Assembly: GCA_019119995.1 (NCBI GenBank)
Contig: DWVY01000062.1
Span: 1 to 54,522 of the forward strand
Direction of reading: 5' to 3'
Source of the DNA: Candidatus Mediterraneibacter faecavium
GTDB taxonomy: Bacteria; Bacillota; Clostridia; Lachnospirales; Lachnospiraceae
Length of the DNA: 54,522 bases
The notes beneath the pieces were generated by a model. The model had not been told where the DNA came from and did not search any database. It saw only the letters and a list, made by a program, of their open reading frames with translations. The number at the start of each line of letters is the position of its first letter. The stretch's first letter is position 1. Positions 1,760-12,921 of the stretch are shown here, one piece after another. The position numbers and the translations under genes were made by a program.

Positions 1760-2891
1760 CCCCCTTTACACGTTTTGCAACAAGTTCAATGTTTTCACTG
1801 TCAGCGCTTCCTACTACAGCATTCTTTCCGATCTTAATGCCGTCGGCTACAAGGGCGCGTGTAACGACAGCGCCTTCGGCAACTTCAGCTCCCGGCATAA
1901 GCACACTGTCGATAACCTTTGCTCCCGGAGCAACTTTTGCGTTTGTAAAAAGTACAGAATTCTTTACTTCGCCGTCTACTACACAGCCCTGTGTGATAAA
2001 TGCTTTTTCGATCTTGGCGTCAGCGCCGATATACTGCGGTAATGCAGTTACGTCTTCTGTATAGATCTTCCATGTCGAATCGTTCAGATCGAGTTCGTTG
2101 TTCTTGCTGAGCAGATCCATATTTGCTTCCCATAGAGAGTCGATCGTTCCAACGTCTTTCCAGTAGCCTTTATATTTGTAAGCAAAGACATTTTTGCCTT
2201 CTGCTAACAGCGTCGGGATGATATCCTTACCGAAGTCATGTGAAGACTCCGTAGACTTCATATCTGCAAGAAGCATCTTCCTTAATGTCTTCCAGTTGAA
2301 GATGTAGATACCCATGGATGCGAGATTGCTCTTCGGATGTTCCGGTTTCTCTTCAAATTCGATGATGCGGCCGGTGTCATTTGTATTCATGATACCGAAA
2401 CGGCTTGCCTCTTTCATCGGAACTTCGATAACGGCGATCGTCGCATCAGACTGGCACTCTTTGTGGTAAGCCAGCATCTTGGCATAGTTCATTTTGTAAA
2501 TATGGTCGCCGGAGAGGATCAGAAGATACTCCGGTGAGTATGTATCGATGAAATCGATATTCTGGGAGATCGCGTCTGCAGTTCCTCTGTATACGTCCAG
2601 ATCTGCATCGGATTTCTCACGCGGCGGAAGTACGTATACACCGCTGTCCTTGGCATCAAGACCCCAGCGGCGTCCTGCTGCGACATAACTGTTAAGAAGG
2701 ACTGATTCATACTGCGTTAATACGCCGACAACATCAATACCACTGTTTGCACAGTTGCTGAGCGGGAAATCGATGATGCGGTATTTTCCGCCATATGAAA
2801 CAGCCGGTTTTGCCACTTTTTTGGTCAGGTCATGCAGACGAGATCCGCGGCCGCCAGCTAAGATCATAGCTAACATATTATTTTGTTTCAT
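1752..2891 (-). CDS. glgC: Glucose-1-phosphate adenylyltransferase, catalytic GlgC subunit
   Basis: This 379-residue enzyme catalyses ATP + glucose-1-phosphate to ADP-glucose + PPi, the committed step of bacterial glycogen synthesis. Residues 9-20 carry the intact nucleotide-binding loop [11 protein letters not shown], followed by [29 protein letters not shown] and FEEKP are the metal and sugar-phosphate binding motifs, and the last third is a hexapeptide-repeat beta-helix. Length is normal for the family. The start is preceded by a GAGGG ribosome binding site and a promoter at 2926-2954. It is first in a two-gene operon with glgD. Confidence 0.96.
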
Positions 2892-2925
2892 AATGAGCCC
2901 TCACTTTCATTCTTACTGTTTTTTT

Positions 2926-2954
2926 ATTATAACGTTCTTTATAGAAATTTTCTA
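2926..2954 (-). promoter_or_regulatory. glgCD promoter
   Basis: On the minus strand a perfect -10 TATAAT (2926-2931) lies 17 bases from a weaker -35 TAGAAA (2949-2954), about 35 bases upstream of the glgC start. Sigma-A type by consensus. Confidence 0.6.
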
Positions 2955-3070
2955 CAATTTTGTTTAAAAAAGAAGAAAATCACATGAAAAATATAGGAAA
3001 AACTTATAAAGAAAAATCGCATAGGGGAATAATAGTAGTATATTCATATGAAAAAGAGAGGCGAAATGAG

Positions 3071-3937
3071 ATGAACACGATAAAAAATAGCGATGAAACA
3101 GTATTTGAAGAAAAAATGATCGTATATTTTACAGAGTTTCTTGAAGAAAAGGAGTGCGCACCGGCGACAATTGAAAAATATGCAAGAGATATAAAAACAT
3201 TTACAAAATATCTTGGAAATGACAAGAAGATTACAAAACAGAGGCTTCTGGCATATAAGGAGTGGCTGATAGAAAATTATTGCATTTCGAGCGTAAACTC
3301 TATGATAGCGGCATTGAATCAGTTCTTGATCTATATAGAGATGGGACGTCTTAGACTAAAAAGAGTAAAGGAACAGGGGCATAGTATGAACCGTGCCGGC
3401 AGGGAGTTATCCGGAGAAGAATTCCGCAGTCTGGTACGCACAGCAAAAGAAAGAGGAAAAGATCAGACAGCTATGATCATGGAGACGATGTGTGCAACAG
3501 GGATCAGGATCAGCGAGCTGAAATTTTTCCGCGTGGAAAATATAGAAAGCGGCGTGGTAAAAGTGCGGAATAAAGGAAAAAGCAGAATCGTTCTCATACC
3601 AAAGATTCTGCAGAAAAAACTTCGCATATATATAAGAAGAAAGGGGATACGAAAAGGGATGATCTTCTGCACGAAAAGCGGAAAGGCAAAGGATCGGTCT
3701 AATATCTGGAAAGAAATGAAAGCAATCGCAAAAATAGCGGGAATAAATCTGGAAAAAGTATTCCCCCATAATCTGCGACACCTCTTTGCGCGTACATTTT
3801 ATAAGACAACAAAAGATCTGATCAATCTGGCGGATATATTGGGACACAGCAGTGTGGAAGTGACGAGGATCTATACATCGGATGGAATACAGGAGTGGCG
3901 CAGAAGCCTGGAGAAGATAAAACTTCTTGAGACATAA
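3071..3937 (+). CDS. Tyrosine recombinase (probable phase-variation invertase)
   Basis: A 288-residue XerC/D-like integrase. An N-terminal SAM-like core-binding domain (about 10-95) precedes a catalytic domain with the full residue set: Arg146 (GIRISEL), Lys168 (NKGK), His233 and Arg236 (HNLRH), His259 (LGHSS) and nucleophile Tyr268 (RIYT). I chose the ATG at 3071, which opens the normal family N-terminus; the frame is open to 2960 but the extra residues look unrelated. The TAA stop (3935-3937) overlaps the first base of a 24-bp inverted site, and the second copy lies 220 bases on. Standing next to its own inverted sites and upstream of a surface-pilus operon is typical of dedicated promoter invertases in gut Firmicutes and Bacteroidetes. 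It could instead be a generic Xer protein, but the context argues against that. Confidence 0.9.
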   Translation: MNTIKNSDETVFEEKMIVYFTEFLEEKECAPATIEKYARDIKTFTKYLGNDKKITKQRLLAYKEWLIENYCISSVNSMIAALNQFLIYIEMGRLRLKRVKEQGHSMNRAGRELSGEEFRSLVRTAKERGKDQTAMIMETMCATGIRISELKFFRVENIESGVVKVRNKGKSRIVLIPKILQKKLRIYIRRKGIRKGMIFCTKSGKAKDRSNIWKEMKAIAKIAGINLEKVFPHNLRHLFARTFYKTTKDLINLADILGHSSVEVTRIYTSDGIQEWRRSLEKIKLLET

Positions 3938-3960
3938 CCACATAATATTAATTATGTGGT
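3937..3960 (+). repeat. Left inverted recombination site of the pilus switch
   Basis: Two 10-base arms, ACCACATAAT and ATTATGTGGT, surround an asymmetric 4-base core ATTA. Perfect arms around a short core are the normal form of a tyrosine-recombinase crossover site. The reverse complement recurs at 4180-4203 with one mismatch. Confidence 0.85.
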
Positions 3961-3996
3961 AGACATACATAGAATGAAATGAATCTATTCTTAAAA

Positions 3997-4025
3997 AGAA
4001 TAAAACGGATTGATAAGCAAGTCAA
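3997..4025 (-). promoter_or_regulatory. Promoter inside the invertible segment, facing away from the pilus genes
   Basis: On the minus strand TTGACT (4020-4025) and TATTCT (3997-4002) are separated by exactly 17 bases. The -10 keeps the key T-A----T positions. It fires toward the left site and the recombinase end. Confidence 0.6.
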
Positions 4026-4038
4026 TAGAAAGTTTAAA
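4010..4038 (+). promoter_or_regulatory. Weaker plus-strand promoter candidate in the switch
   Basis: TTGATA (4010-4015) and TTTAAA (4033-4038) lie 17 bases apart but the -10 lacks the important second A and last T. If real it would give some expression of the pilus genes in the present orientation. Confidence 0.3.
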
Positions 4039-4179
4039 AAAATAATAAAAAATCAGTACGCGGATCATGAATTGTCAAAAATATATAAATCATGGCAAAA
4101 AATATTACAAAATCGTCCCGAATGAAAACATATAAGTAGACAGAGATGCATTCTCCATATGAATACACTGTGTTCTCCA

Positions 4180-4203
4180 ACCACATAATTAATATTATGT
4201 AGT
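4180..4203 (-). repeat. Right inverted recombination site of the pilus switch
   Basis: Reads ACCACATAAT, core TAAT, then ATTATGTAGT. It is the reverse complement of the site at 3937-3960 except for one base at 4201. The inverted orientation of the asymmetric core (ATTA against TAAT) means recombination gives inversion rather than deletion. Confidence 0.85.
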
Positions 4204-4238
4204 TCATACTGGTGTGAAAAGTAGGGAGTGATAGGAAA

Positions 4239-7200
4239 ATGTACAGGAGAAAAGGACGTATCCTTGCAGGGCTGCTTGCACTGATACTGGTCTGCACGTC
4301 GAGCGGCGTGTCTGTCCTTGCAGATGAGGGGACTGATCAGGGGTACACGGCCGGACTCTGCGAACATCATCCGGAGCATACAGATGACTGCGGATATGAT
4401 GCGGCATCAGAGACGCCGTGTGCATATAAGTGTGATATATGCGGGGATAATGTTTCTGAAGAAAGCTCGGAAGAAGATAGTCCTGCCCGAGATGAAAATG
4501 AAAATATGCAGGATGACGCAGCCCCGGTGGATGATGACAGTGATTCTGTCCAGGATGCAGAGCAAAATGATTCTGCAGAAGTGGCTGATACGAAAGAAAT
4601 CGTAGAATGGACATGGGTGGATGAAGACGGAGTCCTCCAACAGAATGGAAACGTATGGGGACTGGGAGTACCAGGAGCCAGTGAAGATAACCCGCTTACT
4701 CAGGATGCATTGCTGGAGATGCTGCCAAAGCAGATCGATGCTGCTCTGGCGGACGGCAGTGAAGTAGCCGTAGATCTGACGTGGGATCTGTCTGCGATAC
4801 CGGAAGAGGGAGTCTGGAGTGGAGATTATACTGTAACCGCTGACGTAGACGTAACGTATAGCTTGGGCGTGGAAGTTGCGCCGTTAAGCGTGGAAGTTGA
4901 AGTTGGGGGAGGGGAGACGTATGCTAGTCAGGAAAATTTGAATGCGAATACGGTAGAAGGAGAATCTCCACAGGGCACTACAATCAATGTGTTTGATTAC
5001 TGGTTGAGTAGTCAGAATGACAGTGACCAGTCAAATCCTGAAAATTACCTGAACAGGGGTATTAACAATGGAGAAGTACTGAAGTTTGGGACAGGTATGG
5101 GGACTGATCGTGATACTGGAGAAAATCATCTGAATAGAAATACTGTAAATTATTGGACCGGAAGTGAGGCAGTGCGTTCGGGAGTTGTCAGCCGGGTTCT
5201 GACTGACGGATATCCGACTCTAAGCAGCACGTTGGGCGGCGGTTCACTGGCCTACCTCTTCAGTACATCGGAAGAACACACAGGTAAAGCCTCATACCCT
5301 GATGCAACGGGGCTGCTCCAGGTAAGCGATGGTTATTTTTACTATAATAGTCAGGATAATTTTGCGGAGCTTAACAGCAGTACAGAGGGAAACGCGTTTA
5401 CACTGTACAATACCTGGGGAGTTTATGCGGGCGGAAGTTCGCCGAACGGACAGTTTTTTCCTTTTGATACAGGCGCAGAAGTATTTGATGATGCAGGGAG
5501 AAATGGCATTACACAAAAAGATGTAAACTCTGTGAGTCAGTATGAAAGTTTGCAGAATCGGGATCAATACATAAATTATCCTGGTGTATCCATCAATCAC
5601 TATTTCGGTCTAACAATGACGACACGGTTTGTTCAGCAATACGGGGGGCATACCGATGAGTCCCCACAAAGTGATGTGGTAACTTATGAATTCAGCGGAG
5701 ACGATGATGTATGGGTATTCATCGATGATGTTTTGGTAGCTGATTTGGGAGGAATCCATGATGCAGCATCATTGGAAATTAATTTTAATACAGGAGCAAT
5801 TAGCATTAATGGTAGTGGAACAGGGACTCTGAAAAGTATGTACCAGGCAGCCGGCAGAGTTAATAGTACAACATGGAATCAAAATACATTTGCGGACAAC
5901 ACTTATCATACTTTAAGATTCTTTTATCTGGAACGCGGTAATACAGATTCTAATATGTCTCTGCGCTTTAATCTGGTGACAATCCCGGAGAGCGGAATCA
6001 TCAAGATGGATCAGTCAGGAAACCATATAGCGGGAGCGAGGTTTACGCTGTATGAAGCAACTGAACAGTATGAAAAAGGGAATAGAATCTGTAGTGGTGT
6101 TACCGACGATAAGGGCGAATTGATTTTTGTAGATGATCAGGGAATGATTGTCAGTCTGGCAGATTTGTACAGCCGCAATATTCAGTATCTGGTTCTGGAG
6201 GAGACAGCTTCTCCACAGGGCTATCGAACGACTGGGGACATGCATCTTTATTTTTATACGCCTAATAATGGGCAGGATGTAGTTTTACTTTCAGATAATG
6301 AATGGGATACTGGTTCTTACGCTAGCTCAAAGGTGACAGCACAGACCGGTTCGGAAATTACTTTGAGTGATTCCAGGTCAATAAATCTTGATACTGATGG
6401 TGGGACACTCTTTGCAGTTGTGTTGCAAAGACAGGATATATCCGGTGATTTAGAGAATTCAAACAACTGGCGGGCAGTTTACGGAGATCCTGAAAGTGGA
6501 TGGCATGTAGCTTCTGACTCAGGTATGTTAGCTATTATTGATGCTGCACAGAACAATCCATATGAATTTGAAGTAACAGCCAGCGGTGCATATGAAGCCA
6601 ATGTCGAGAACTTGCCGGGTGATATTACAAAGTATTACTACATGCTTAGCGAGCAAGAGAAAAATAATGCGAAATATACAATCGCGTATTATTATACCAC
6701 AGAGGCTTCCGTAGCAGGAGCTACGATCGGAAATACCCGGCGCGTGGACAGCGATGAGTTTGAAAGAGTATTCTCAGTAAATCTATATGTACCGAATATA
6801 CAGAACAACTTGTATGTGCAAAAATTAGATGAGAGTGGGACACCAGTTTCAGCGGAAATTGGTACTGCAACATTTGCGCTTTATAAAGCAGAGGATGTAA
6901 CAATTGCTGATGATGGAACATATACCATCAGAGATGAAGCAACCCGTGTACAGACTCAGACAACTAGTGATATGACCATGCCTCTTGAGCTGACGGGCGG
7001 TGCAATGTTCAGCAGGATACCGATTGGAGAGTATTATCTGATCGAGACATCTGCTCCTACAGGATATGTGGCATCAGGACAGGCGGTTCATGTAATTGTT
7101 GACAATACGGGCGTCTATGCAGATGCAGGCACAGAAACGGATGCAGTCAGTGTTCGCAGAGGAGTCGGTTCTGTTGTGAGAAGTATGGTTCAATTTGCAA

Positions 7201-8637: not shown

Positions 8638-10257
8638 ATGAAAACGAAACTTAGAAACACGTGGATTTCAAAGCTCATGGCATTATGTCTGGCGGTTGTG
8701 ATGATGCTGTCGATGAGCATGACGGTATTTGCTGTAAAGAGTACAGATACAGCCGATTTCGAGGTGACAGGATTTGACACGGATCCCGCTCCGTCTGTAT
8801 CCGCTTATCAGATTATTACGGTAAATGTAGATGATACATCAGCACAACCTGAGTATCCAGTGTATACATGGGTCAATGAAGTAGCAAATTGGGTAACAGC
8901 AAATCATCCTGCTTATATCGATCAGACCTTGGGAACAAATGCCGTGGCAGATGCTTTTGCTGAAGCAGATGCCGCTGATCTGACTACGTTTCTTGAAGAG
9001 ATGACGGCAGCAATCAAAGATAATACTATTACAGGGATTACACCTACTACGGTTACTGCCTCAAATGGTACAGCATCATTTACAGATATGGCAATGGGAG
9101 AGTATCTCATTACAGCAAATGGTGGGGTAAAGATTTATCAGCCTACAACAGTAAAAGTAGTTCCGGTATATGATGAAGAATCTCAATCCTGGGAAGTCTC
9201 AGAAGCCGTGATTGGCGATAAAGGCGTTATGAAATCTCAGGAGCCATCCATTGGGAAAGAAGTCGCAGACGGGGATGATACAGTAGCGGTTGGAGATACT
9301 GTTAAGTATAAACTGACAGTAGTAATACCGGACTATCCGACAGATTCTACTGATGCAAAGCTTGAGGTAGGAGATACTTTTTTATCAGGATTGACATATA
9401 ACAATGATGTAAGGGTTTATTCTGATGCTGATATGACTATTGAAATTCCAGCGGCTGGAGTGTATACGAATGTAACAGATGGGGAAACTCTTGCCAATAA
9501 AGACTTCCTATTACAGTTTACTCAGGATTACATATTAACTCATGGTGGACAGACAATATATGTAGGATACACAGGTACTGTAAATAATGATGCGTTTTCA
9601 GCAGCAGATGCTCTGGGAAATAGGGCATTCCTCGGATATAACAATGATCCATATAATGACACTTCCTATACACCAGATAAGGAAACTGAAGAAAAGGTAT
9701 ATTCCTATATTATTAATCTGAAAAAAGTAGATAAAAATGGTAGCGCTCTTTCTGGAGCTGAATTTACACTGACAAAAAGCAATGAGCAGAATGCAATGAA
9801 GTTTAATGGCTCAAATGGAGTTTATACATATGATTCTAAGGGTCAAGTAACAGATACCAAGCTTGCGGTTAATGGAGAGGGAGTGCTTTCAATTAGAGGT
9901 TTGGATGAGGGCACCTATGTTTTACGGGAAATAAAAGCCCCAAATGATTACGTACTTCCGAACGGTGAGATTACGATTGAAATTTATGATCAGGACAATG
10001 GATCAGCAGATGGAATAATTGATGAAGGCGAATCTGCTATTGTTAACGCAGATGGAACAGCAAAATTGTATGGTAATGTAGTGATTGATGGAAATACCGT
10101 ATCTTTTAATATTGAGAACACCAGCTCCGCAGATGCCGGCTTCCAGCTCCCGACCACCGGCGGCATGGGTACTATGATCTTTACGATCGCAGGTATCCTC
10201 CTCATGGGCGGCGCGGTTGCTCTGATCGTAGTAGCTGCAAGAAAGAAGAGAGGATAA
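8638..10257 (+). CDS. Major pilin, isopeptide-forming, LPTTG-anchored
   Basis: A 539-residue backbone pilin of the SpaA/FctA type. A signal peptide (1-31, ending TVFA) is followed by an N-terminal pilin domain (about 35-190), a D2-type isopeptide domain (from SIGKEVADGDD, about 205-360), and a Cna-B/SpaA domain (from IINLKKVDKNGSALSGAEFTL) with the E-box YVLREIKAPNDY. LPTTG (504-508), a membrane helix and ARKKRG form the sorting signal. No canonical YPK pilin motif was seen; VKVVPVY may take its place. GAGGAGG ribosome binding site. The two class C sortases downstream are the expected polymerases. Base composition is more AT-rich than the housekeeping genes nearby, as is common for surface proteins. 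Confidence 0.9.
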   Translation: MKTKLRNTWISKLMALCLAVVMMLSMSMTVFAVKSTDTADFEVTGFDTDPAPSVSAYQIITVNVDDTSAQPEYPVYTWVNEVANWVTANHPAYIDQTLGTNAVADAFAEADAADLTTFLEEMTAAIKDNTITGITPTTVTASNGTASFTDMAMGEYLITANGGVKIYQPTTVKVVPVYDEESQSWEVSEAVIGDKGVMKSQEPSIGKEVADGDDTVAVGDTVKYKLTVVIPDYPTDSTDAKLEVGDTFLSGLTYNNDVRVYSDADMTIEIPAAGVYTNVTDGETLANKDFLLQFTQDYILTHGGQTIYVGYTGTVNNDAFSAADALGNRAFLGYNNDPYNDTSYTPDKETEEKVYSYIINLKKVDKNGSALSGAEFTLTKSNEQNAMKFNGSNGVYTYDSKGQVTDTKLAVNGEGVLSIRGLDEGTYVLREIKAPNDYVLPNGEITIEIYDQDNGSADGIIDEGESAIVNADGTAKLYGNVVIDGNTVSFNIENTSSADAGFQLPTTGGMGTMIFTIAGILLMGGAVALIVVAARKKRG

Positions 10258-10292
10258 TCTGTCCTTAAGCATTTCGATTGGATTCAGAATTA

Positions 10293-11186
10293 ATGAAGAG
10301 AGAACAGAAAAAGAAGAAAAGTAATCTGTTATTACTCCTGGCGCCCCTGCTGCTTTTTGCGGCAGGCGCCGGGATTTTCCTTTATCCGGCGGTAAGTAAT
10401 TATCTGGCGGAGCGGCAGCAGTCGGAAGTGATCCATACTTACCGGGCGGCTGTGAATGAGATGGACCAGGCGGAAATAGATGCTGCATGGCAGGAGGCTG
10501 TGGAGTACAATGAGAACCTTGCCGGAGATCCGGTACATGACCCTTTTGTCATGGGGAGCGGCTATGTCCTTCCGGATAATTATGAAGAAGTATTAAATGT
10601 CAACGGCGATGGGGTGATGGGATATATCGATATCCCGAAGATTGACGTCTATCTTCCGATTTACCATGGAACCAGTGAAGAGGTATTGGCAGAGGGCGCC
10701 GGACATCTGGAGATGACAGCGCTTCCCATTGGCGGGAACAATCGGCATCCGGTCATCAGTGCCCATCGCGGCCTGCCTAGTGCGGAGCTGTTTACCCGGC
10801 TGGATGAGATGGAGGCCGGAGATCAGTTTTATATCCATGTACTTGATCATACTCTGGCTTATGAGGTGGATCAGATCGAGGTGATCCTGCCGGAAGAGCT
10901 TTCTCTTCTGCAGCCGGAGGAAGACAAGGATCTGGTGACGCTGCTGACCTGTACTCCGTATGCAGTGAATACGCATCGTCTCCTCGTGCGGGGGACGCGG
11001 GTGCCGTATGAGCCTGAGACTGAGGAAGATACTGTGCAGACGGCGGATCAGGTGAGTACCTGGCTGAGAGAGTATCTGTATGCGATACTTGCAGGCATTC
11101 TCCTGCTCTTTATCCTTGTGACTGCCGTGATCACCCTGAGACGCAGGAAACGAGGGAGACGAAGGAGGCGCAGGAGACGGCGATGA
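10293..11186 (+). CDS. Class C (pilin-polymerising) sortase 1
   Basis: A 297-residue membrane transpeptidase that would cut LPxTG-type signals and join pilin subunits. An N-terminal membrane helix (about 13-35) precedes a lid region with the DPF motif (VHDPFVMG) characteristic of class C sortases. The catalytic set is His158 (SAHRG), Cys220 (LLTCTPY) and Arg229 (NTHRL). A second helix near the C-terminus and a run of arginines follow. I chose the ATG at 10293; the frame is also open from a TTG at 10278, and neither has a strong ribosome binding site. The stop overlaps the next sortase start as ATGA. Confidence 0.93.
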   Translation: MKREQKKKKSNLLLLLAPLLLFAAGAGIFLYPAVSNYLAERQQSEVIHTYRAAVNEMDQAEIDAAWQEAVEYNENLAGDPVHDPFVMGSGYVLPDNYEEVLNVNGDGVMGYIDIPKIDVYLPIYHGTSEEVLAEGAGHLEMTALPIGGNNRHPVISAHRGLPSAELFTRLDEMEAGDQFYIHVLDHTLAYEVDQIEVILPEELSLLQPEEDKDLVTLLTCTPYAVNTHRLLVRGTRVPYEPETEEDTVQTADQVSTWLREYLYAILAGILLLFILVTAVITLRRRKRGRRRRRRRRR

Positions 11187-12124
11187 AGAGAATATGGCTT
11201 TTTATCCTGGCAGGGCTCCTGCTCCTGACAGGACTCGGGATTCTTCTCTATCCGAACCTGAACCGGCTTGCCGCAGGATTTACAGATCAGGAGAAGATCG
11301 TACATTTCCGGGAGGAGCAGAAGGAAACAGACGGAGAGGACGCCCCTTATGCGGACCTTCTTACTCAGATGCAGGACTACAATAAGGAAATCTATGAAAA
11401 CGGGCAGGAAGATCTGAAAGATGTATGGAGTTACGAACAGAACCCGTTTGATTTTGATACGGCCGGCCTCGCGGATGACATGATCGGGTATATCACGATC
11501 GACGCCATGGACGAGGAAATGCCCCTGTATATCGGAGCAAATGAGGAAAATATGAGCAAGGGCGCTGTGGTCATGGGGCAGACGAGCATGCCCATCGGCG
11601 GAGAGAACACGAACTGCGTGATCGCGGCTCACCGCGGGTACAGGGGGATTCCCATGTTTCAGTATATTGAAGTGCTGCAGCCGGGTGACAAGATTGAGAT
11701 TACGAATCTGTGGGACACAATCGAGTATGAAGTCGCGAAATGTATTGTGATCCGGCCGGATGACATTGATGCGGTGAAGATCGTGCCCGGACAGGATATG
11801 CTGACTCTGATCACCTGTCATCCGTACACGCAGAATTATCAGAGATATGTCGTCTACTGCAGGCGGACAGACCATGGAGAAGGTGCTGCGCAGCCGGATG
11901 GTGAAAATGATCCGCTGGCAGCATTTGACGGAGTGGTCTATGTGTCGTCTGCTGACGACATACGGCGAGAACAGCTTGTCAATACAGCTGTGATGGCCGG
12001 ATGCGCTGCTCTCTGCCTGTTCATCTTGAAGGCTGTCTGTGTGCGGGCTGTAGGAGGACGGAAACGCCGGAAGAGGAAAATGCATGCGAAACGTGAGCGC
12101 AGAAAGGGAAGAAGGAATGGCTAA
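11183..12124 (+). CDS. Class C sortase 2
   Basis: A 313-residue second class C sortase with N- and C-terminal membrane helices. The catalytic residues are His150 (AAHRGYRG), Cys212 (LITCHPY) and Arg221 (YQRYVV). The lid motif is NPF instead of DPF, suggesting a different lid behaviour or substrate preference from its neighbour. The 4-base ATGA overlap with sortase 1 shows translational coupling. Two pilus sortases beside one LPTTG pilin and one LPFSG adhesin suggest that one polymerises the shaft and the other joins the adhesin; this division of labour is inferred. Confidence 0.92.
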   Translation: MKRIWLFILAGLLLLTGLGILLYPNLNRLAAGFTDQEKIVHFREEQKETDGEDAPYADLLTQMQDYNKEIYENGQEDLKDVWSYEQNPFDFDTAGLADDMIGYITIDAMDEEMPLYIGANEENMSKGAVVMGQTSMPIGGENTNCVIAAHRGYRGIPMFQYIEVLQPGDKIEITNLWDTIEYEVAKCIVIRPDDIDAVKIVPGQDMLTLITCHPYTQNYQRYVVYCRRTDHGEGAAQPDGENDPLAAFDGVVYVSSADDIRREQLVNTAVMAGCAALCLFILKAVCVRAVGGRKRRKRKMHAKRERRKGRRNG

Positions 12125-12854
12125 AGCAGAAGACCTTACCGGGCGCAGATTCGGGAACCTCAAAGTGTTGGAACGGGCAAAGAACCGCAACGGGCGTGTC
12201 TGCTGGCTGTGCCGCTGCGACTGCGGAAATGAGAAGGTGGTGTCAGCACATGATCTGAAAGCAGGAAAATGTAAAACCTGCGGCGGCCGTAGCCACAGGA
12301 TATCTACAAACATGATAGATCTTACCGGAAAAAAGTTCGGGCGTCTGACTGTGCAATACCCGATAAAGCGCCGGGATAAGAGAGGTTGTGTATACTGGCA
12401 CTGCATTTGTGAATGTGGACGGGAGACAGACCTTAGTGAAAATGACTTAAGACACGGAAATTACCAGAGCTGCGGCTGCCTTAGGAAAGCGCTCCAGAAA
12501 GAGCTGCCGAAGCAGCTTACTATGGTGGATGGTACATGCATTGAGATGTTGGAGAGCAGAAAGTACCGCAGGGACAATAAAAGCGGGTTCCGAGGCGTAT
12601 ATCAGATGAAGAATCAGAAATACCGCGTATCGATCGGATTCAAAGGGAAGAGATATTATGTAGGGACTTATAAAGATTATGATGAGGCGGTCCGGGCAAG
12701 GCTTGCAGCGGAAGAAACAGTATTTTCCGGATTTCTCAGAGAATATCAGAGCTGGAAAGAAAAAGCAGATGATGATCCCGGGTGGGCACAGAGTCACCCT
12801 CTGGTCTATGAAGTAGAGAAAATAAACGGCAGCCTGACAGTCAGGACGAGCTGA
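12117..12854 (+). CDS. AP2-domain DNA-binding protein with duplicated Cys-rich N-terminus
   Basis: A 245-residue protein. Two homologous segments of about 60 residues each start with LTGRRFGNLKV or LTGKKFGRLTV and contain CxCDCG or CxCECG clusters, probably zinc-binding. A C-terminal AP2-type DNA-binding domain follows (about 147-200: SGFRGVYQMKNQKYRVSI and KRYYVGTYKDYDEAVRAR). Such proteins are common in phages and mobile DNA and often derive from homing endonucleases, but no HNH nuclease motif is visible here. I chose the ATG at 12117, 8 bases after AAAGGG; an ATG at 12084 is also possible. It overlaps the sortase end, so it is expressed with the pilus genes, either as a regulator or as a passenger. 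Followed by a terminator. Confidence 0.75.
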   Translation: MAKAEDLTGRRFGNLKVLERAKNRNGRVCWLCRCDCGNEKVVSAHDLKAGKCKTCGGRSHRISTNMIDLTGKKFGRLTVQYPIKRRDKRGCVYWHCICECGRETDLSENDLRHGNYQSCGCLRKALQKELPKQLTMVDGTCIEMLESRKYRRDNKSGFRGVYQMKNQKYRVSIGFKGKRYYVGTYKDYDEAVRARLAAEETVFSGFLREYQSWKEKADDDPGWAQSHPLVYEVEKINGSLTVRTS

Positions 12855-12866
12855 ATAAAGCAGATG

Positions 12867-12906
12867 GAAAACTTCCTATTTTTCGCGATCAGGAAGTTTT
12901 TCTTTT
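12867..12906 (+). terminator. Rho-independent terminator of the pilus operon
   Basis: AAAACTTCCT (12867-12876) pairs with AGGAAGTTTT (12890-12899), and the T-rich tail runs to 12906. It directly follows the AP2 gene. Confidence 0.85.
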
Positions 12907-12921
12907 TGTGCATTTTGATGA

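Follow-up and report, generated by a model that had tools for sequence, protein, structure and literature searches.

The window, that is, the whole stretch of DNA that was analysed, comprises 54,522 nucleotides of Candidatus Mediterraneibacter faecavium (GCA_019119995.1, contig DWVY01000062.1, positions 1-54,522, forward strand), and it carries a tyrosine recombinase gene, a short non-coding segment between two inverted sites and an operon for a sortase-assembled pilus (Table 1).

Table 1. Features of the candidate switch and of the pilus operon, in positions of the window.
Feature	Position	Strand	Remarks
Tyrosine recombinase, 288 aa	3071-3937	+	Pfam Phage_integrase 1.2e-23; transcribed toward the switch
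Left recombination site	3937-3960	+	ACCACATAAT-ATTA-ATTATGTGGT; 10-bp arms, 4-bp core ATTA, palindromic
Invertible segment (predicted)	3961-4179		219 bp, non-coding
Putative sigma-A-type promoter	3997-4025	-	TTGACT-17-TATTCT; 36 bp from left inner edge, facing recombinase
Right recombination site	4180-4203	-	inverted copy of left site, one arm mismatch
Pilus leader outside segment	4204-4238	+	also conserved in G019 and L008
Pilus tip / ancillary adhesin, 1429 aa	4239-8528	+	SpaA, DUF7601, fibro-slime domains
Major pilin, SpaH/EbpB family, LPXTG anchor	8638-10257	+	profile matches
Class C (pilus) sortase 1	10278-11186	+	NF033745 above cutoff
Class C (pilus) sortase 2	11183-12124	+	NF033745 above cutoff
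AP2-like (presumed) / zinc-ribbon protein, operon end	12084-12854	+	repeated Cys motifs; no Pfam match

The recombinase has, according to Pfam, the architecture of a two-domain tyrosine recombinase, and its nearest solved chains are Xer proteins. The top NCBIfam profile is XerA-like and is matched under its cutoff; indeed, the scores obtained with the XerA (134.9 bits, cutoff 220), XerC (108.4, cutoff 335) and XerD (119.7, cutoff 330) models place the protein below every listed Xer cutoff, and its identification as a housekeeping XerC, XerD or XerA protein of dif resolution was thus rejected. PRK09870, the NCBIfam model for tyrosine-type DNA invertases, which we take to be of the FimB/E type, was matched with 20.7 bits, below its cutoff of 221. 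The reading frame is intact, and R146, K170, H233, R236, H259 and Y268, which we take to be the catalytic residues, are invariant in an alignment of 26 sequences, in agreement with the earlier note, which had ascribed all catalytic residues to this protein.

A site-specific recombinase is therefore encoded beside two inverted sites that enclose a short non-coding segment. The stop codon TAA (3935-3937) and the left site overlap by one base, in the place where the earlier note had described a 24-bp site with 10-base arms and a 4-base core; the reverse-complement copy with one mismatch, which had been put about 220 bases further on and before the pilus gene, was likewise recovered, the two sites being 219 bp apart. 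The core and the inner arms of the pair match exactly, and when the arms are taken together with one flanking base 24 of 25 positions are complementary; shuffling the 2-kb region 2800-4800 60 times gave inverted 25-nt matches of at most 19. A search of the assembled genome (2.84 Mb, 90% complete) gave no extra copy, either of the exact site with up to 3 mismatches or of the general site pattern with 0 mismatches, and no Rfam match to a functional RNA was obtained in 2880-4300 up to E 1. The right site ends 35 bp before the start of the tip gene, and a ribosome-binding site (AGGGAG, at about 4223-4228) can be read by eye in the leader between them.

The tip, pilin and sortase reading frames are intact, and the Pfam and NCBIfam profiles that identify the tip, the pilin and two class C sortases bear out the pilus operon that had been proposed after the right site. 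Inspection by eye adds an LPFSG-type sorting signal in the tip adhesin and, 3' of the AP2-like gene at about 12868-12907, a terminator-like hairpin with a run of T residues. A search with this last family gave 39 listed places in 24 of 397 genomes. Homologues follow a switch in L004, L006, L010, L077, L079, L207 and L210, most copies being found elsewhere, and only 5 of the 39 listed places lie within 10 kb of a listed recombinase place (counted by eye); the gene was thus rejected as a partner of the switch, and the protein is not switch-specific. A second copy, with 57% identity and one internal stop, is found at G000:C4:30880.

We have carried out a survey of related recombinases. A species-genome scan gave 32 relatives, and a profile search across 397 sampled genomes of the bacterial family detected a related recombinase in 102 (E ≤ 1e-40). 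The places examined reach down to E 1.3e-98 and amount to 122 in 68 genomes, the copy of the window and three of G010 being excluded. Downstream sequence of 600 nt or more was available for 102 relatives; in 88 of these two inverted sites lie just downstream of the recombinase, and the remaining 14 have no recognisable pair. A site with at most 1 mismatch was found upstream in none of the 122 places within up to 400 nt (at least 390 nt were present in 118 of them). The earlier note would have been contradicted by a recombinase that always occurs without such sites in relatives, and the opposite was found. Statistics on promoters, orientation and intervals were obtained from 120 of 124 pairs, namely 86 from the 122 family places and 34 others; rows L003 (contig of L112), L028 (contig of L070/L071) and L030 (same as L049) were dropped, as were two pairs consisting of masked N runs, and L162, which may be a chance pair, is among the 120. 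In this set the median distance from the end of the match to the recombinase to the start of the left site is 18 nt, and the median segment length is 235 bp. The similarity between segments is low across loci (median best score 15) and the structure of the sites is kept; the segment of the window has no close homologue among the other 119, its best score being 24.5 and the 99th percentile of all pairs 30.

The longest open reading frame after the right site is a forward one in 97 of 113 loci and a reverse one in 13. The first downstream proteins include pilin-like and LPXTG proteins, capsule enzymes and an EAL protein (cyclic-di-GMP type). A domain scan of 20 of them gave VWA, SpaA and DUF7601 surface domains and a BspA-type repeat protein among the matches, together with sugar transferases, other capsule genes, the EAL protein, a DNA polymerase, a signal peptidase and a protein with a helicase-associated domain, and no domain match for two. 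The genes placed after these switches are thus diverse, and the switch is therefore not tied to pili.

Several loci have particular arrangements. Extra sites with the same core are found in tandem at L187 (G310:C2), L151, L160, L176, L154, L165, L018 and L126; L187 has three sites at either end, in 34-bp steps, and adjoining copies at such loci could delete against each other. The CANQCD010 MAG (L017, L019, L021, L022, L026 and L032), G313, G209 and G106 each contain at least five places of this recombinase type, with mostly different cores, and cells of this kind possibly harbour many independently switchable loci. Between L224 (G075) and L225 (G106), which belong to different genera, the segments are identical at 216 of 217 positions and the 150-nt right flanks are identical, as would result either from a recent transfer or from cross-contamination of the assemblies. 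The viral collection IMG/VR gave no relatives when searched with a single sequence and 10 (L254-L263) with an alignment, 7 of which have paired sites; these may be proviral regions or miscalled host DNA.

The earlier note had also placed a promoter in the gene-free enclosed DNA and had left its direction unstated. The best promoter of the segment lies on the minus strand and aims at the recombinase, away from the pilus, and we thus regard the window as assembled in the OFF orientation. A simple consensus scan of 2890-4260 gave 6 promoter-like sites against 4.6 expected, which is not significant; since the window taken by itself is not above chance, the claim of a promoter rests on the relatives, where it holds at the level of sequence. 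Using a hand-entered promoter matrix, a score of at least 9 was obtained in 86 of 120 segments (72%) as compared to 16% of shuffles, and a score of at least 12 in 27% as compared to 0.3%. In these 86 segments the distance from the end of the -10 element to the segment end that it faces has a median of 42 bp, with the middle half at 34-46, versus 132 in shuffles, and the promoter faces the recombinase in 65 and the downstream gene in 21. Stricter rules classify 61 of the 120 loci as OFF (facing the recombinase) and 15 as ON (facing the downstream gene), leaving 44 unclear; the same rules classified 19 of 480 shuffles. An outward promoter inside the segment is thus predicted for the window.

Recombinases of the tyrosine class need identical sequence in the crossover region, and the cores of the two sites of a functional pair should thus match even if they are not conserved between loci. 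The pair finder behind the 124 pairs favours matching cores, and for this reason the count was taken from a core-blind scan, in which sites were sought in 177 related loci with the 4-bp core left free. With at most 1 arm mismatch, two sites were found in 95 loci, one in 26 and none in 56. The cores are reverse complements of each other in all 95 two-site loci, with 56 distinct cores, and at 0 arm mismatches in all 75, with 50 distinct cores; reshuffling the partners of the 95 loci 2000 times gave a mean of 2.6 matching cores and a maximum of 9. Indeed, the match extends to the central 6 bp in every one of the 95, a number that does not stand for as many independent tests, because the loci share ancestry. 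A core that is free to vary and nevertheless changes in both sites together is thus a well supported pattern, and recombination itself would be what keeps the two copies identical. Palindromic four-base cores occur in 1 of 95 loci against 5.9 expected (p 0.016), and at six bases in 0 of 95, a weak hint of selection against symmetric cores given that the loci are related. The idea that the core acts as an address label insulating the switches of one genome found no support: identical cores are found in 4 of 41 same-genome pairs versus 71 of 4424 pairs between genomes.

Opposite orientations are observed between homologous loci and between species. On one contig of G010, a genome of the same genus as the window, the segments of L070 and L071 are identical at 169 of 225 positions when one is inverted, compared to 126 of 207 as is, and their flanks are collinear (recombinase 646/798, right flank 237/298). 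The segment of L043 (G009) is inverted with respect to L070 (160/222 versus 125/206 as is) and has the same orientation as L071 (183/234 as is). A weaker case is G420:C31 against G420:C10 and G106, with reverse-complement scores of 43.5 and 40.5 versus 12.5 and 9.0. Among the 45 best segment pairs listed, 36 have the same orientation and 9 are inverted. The earlier note had named as contrary evidence that no related genome ever shows the flipped state, and L070, inverted with respect to L071 and L043 between collinear flanks, speaks to the contrary.

Assemblers break contigs where both orientations coexist. Of the 122 loci, 20 (from 13 genomes) lie on contigs that stop no more than 500 nt past the recombinase and 4 (from 4 genomes) have a contig end as close on its upstream side (p 0.0015), an excess to which paralogues may contribute. 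When other relatives are included, 32 loci have a downstream contig end within 500 nt, and in 8 of them, judged by eye, the contig stops within the left site or no more than one base from it. Contigs ending at the left site are found in G252, G196:C92, G141 (two), L009 and L018, and two G274 contigs stop in what appear by eye to be its first bases. As for both orientations within one assembly, the tails of the contig pairs C15/C32 of G010 and C35/C38 of G137, compared by eye in either orientation, share nothing clear beyond the site edge.

A further view of the orientation comes from the orthologous pilus loci. A search of 58 genomes of the genus found relatives of the tip in 10, counting that of the window; of the neighbouring genes, glgCD are seen again in L008, L066, L069 and L078, and the MarR/ABC-transporter genes, at high identity, in L008 and L069. 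The segment of the window matches the region upstream of the G005 tip with a score of 44.0 when inverted and 11.5 as is (maximum of 300 shuffles 23.5), and that of the G019 tip with 34.0 and 19.0, respectively (shuffle maximum 29.0); with the segment reversed, the G019 match continues across the site region as far as the ribosome-binding site and scores 53.0, compared to 29.5 as assembled. The promoters aligned with that of the window face the pilus and read TTGACT-17-TAACAT in G005 and TTGACT-17-TAATAT in G019, although in G019 a promoter-like site facing away from the tip scores 10.1 against 8.8 for the tip-facing one. No site lies between promoter and tip in these two genomes and no recombinase was found in the stretch examined (300 nt in G005, 1.5 kb in G019), for which reason their promoter looks fixed; since the segment of the window matches these apparently fixed promoters only when inverted, the window is again placed in the OFF state. 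The comparison of orientation in relatives that the earlier note had called for thus has the segment of the window flipped with respect to the pilus promoters of G005 and G019.

The remaining three of the five tip orthologues give no clear match: an inverted match is absent for G025 (L297) and G010 (L299), and that of G031 (L298) is marginal (19.5 inverted, shuffle maximum 17.0). The switch of G031 is complete, with a different core (CTCA) and a promoter that faces the tip. A single site, with no recombinase within 1.5 kb, is left in L299 and L300, and L296 and L297 have no site; the operon can thus do without the switch. In L008, whose GlgC is 97% identical, the flanks meet at one site (matching 96/110 as far as the left site and 74/90 from the right one onward), with no clear trace of the segment (scores of 15 and 13, taken without a control). 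At L008:6650-7640 the segment thus appears lost exactly between the sites, with the glgCD and MarR/ABC neighbours kept; the recombinase has an internal gap, and the greater part of the pilus operon is missing. Since the sites are close to palindromic, wrong-way synapsis or slipped replication could delete a segment in this way. A decayed orthologue at L069:4590-5870 (G007) has a recombinase whose frame is broken and cut off, no switch and then a shortened tip gene.

Altogether, we are highly confident that the locus is a fim-type invertible promoter switch, which would subject a sortase-assembled pilus to phase variation. The adjacent tyrosine recombinase would bind both inverted 24-bp sites and exchange strands within the identical central core, thereby flipping the 219-bp segment with its outward promoter 36 bp inside one end. 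In the ON orientation this promoter would drive the tip-pilin-sortase operon, and in the assembled OFF orientation it would run into the recombinase gene at its 3' end, with no promoter left for the pilus. At the level of sequence, the anatomy, the identity of the cores, the placement of promoters in relatives, the opposite orientations of homologous loci and the exact loss of a segment in a relative all point in this direction. From these we infer that the adjacent recombinase performs the flipping, that the segment flips in the present-day species and that pilus expression follows its orientation.

The alternative that deserves most weight is an unlikely one, namely an inherited anatomy whose recombinase or sites have lost their function in this species. 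Decay does occur at this locus, as seen from the loss of the segment and part of the recombinase in L008, from the broken recombinase, missing switch and cut tip of L069, and from the single site with no recombinase gene within 1.5 kb in G010 and G462, and the window itself is OFF; however, its recombinase frame is intact with the catalytic residues kept, its cores and inner arms match exactly, and its tip, pilin and sortase frames are undamaged. It is much less probable that the inversion is real and mainly controls the recombinase, by antisense in the OFF state, with the pilus under another promoter. Although the OFF promoter faces the recombinase 3' end and 61 of 76 classified loci are OFF, no tip-facing promoter was found in 3934-4238 as assembled at an 8-bit threshold, and the matching promoters of the two congeners face the tip.

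We give a shade less credence still to a switch of the cwpV type, in which the promoter lies outside the segment and the OFF-oriented segment forms a transcription terminator. The C. difficile cwpV and flagellar RecV systems are indeed similar in belonging to Firmicutes, in their XerC/D-like tyrosine recombinase and in their repeats of about 20 bp around a segment of about 200 bp, the cwpV repeats being 21 bp long and 195 bp apart (accessible portion of PMC2784873). However, the same portion of that source has the promoter outside the segment and RecV encoded away from the cwpV switch, whereas the present locus has an adjacent recombinase and an internal promoter; no terminator-like site was found in 2890-4260, where shuffles give only 0.7, the segments of relatives tend to hold a promoter at a fixed internal place, and that of the window matches the pilus promoter of two congeners. 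Least credible of all is a relic of a MITE transposon, with terminal inverted repeats, next to an unrelated recombinase. A short non-coding segment with 24-bp inverted ends would fit such an element, but repeated copies at unrelated places are lacking in the assembled genome, each end is a palindromic site in itself, 88 of 102 loci have the pair immediately 3' of a recombinase of this type, segments differ between loci under a conserved site structure, and the segment is inverted between paralogues with collinear flanks, so that this reading is already contradicted.

Returning to the invertible promoter, a broader proposal, which we consider tentative and on balance rather doubtful, is that of a widespread, self-contained cassette of Lachnospiraceae and relatives, in which the two cores of 4-6 bp, free to vary, would change together via recombination and the OFF promoter would damp the recombinase and favour OFF. 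Since recombination itself would keep the cores identical, their identity would report a live or recently live switch; and since the OFF promoter would fire head-on into the recombinase gene, recombination would be damped. The geometry and the skew of 61 OFF versus 15 ON loci suggest that the switch may feed back on its own recombinase in this manner.

FimB and FimE are recombinases of the tyrosine class, and the E. coli fim switch has 9-bp repeats. As in the present locus, a short invertible promoter segment (fimS) lies there upstream of a fimbrial operon with recombinase genes nearby (accessible portion of PMC2784873); in contrast, the window has a Gram-positive sortase pilus, one recombinase in view and 24-bp sites. 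Switches of this kind are thus already known, both as fim-type invertible promoters and as an inverton-invertase pair of Clostridia. In the hCom2 community, inverton group 139 and invertase group 35 comprise 33 invertons, 32 of them from Clostridia, nearly all with a tyrosine recombinase nearby and with a motif called previously unpublished; the orientation of one member shifts during growth on mucin carriers, and the main text, as far as available, contains no mention of sortase, pilus, pili or 'spacer' (PMC11892184). The switch of the window probably belongs to this same family. Bifidobacterium breve, likewise a gut commensal, switches sortase pili ON and OFF, by replication slippage according to the title of the report and not by promoter inversion (PMC9187656). 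Terms on Lachnospiraceae and pili are absent from the accessible portion of PMC5903667, and among the papers listed by a literature search that covered few subscription journals none showed an invertible promoter for a sortase pilus of Lachnospiraceae. In the window this type of switch is tied to a sortase pilus and backed by the rule of matching cores, which has no exception in 95 loci.

This rule offers a way to spot such switches independently of sequencing reads, draft genomes included, and the idea of antisense transcription in the OFF state is directly testable. If the interpretation is true, this gut bacterium would bet on a piliated versus a bald state through the flipping of a promoter, which, judging from the known roles of pili, would bear on its adhesion, its visibility to the immune system and its escape from phages.
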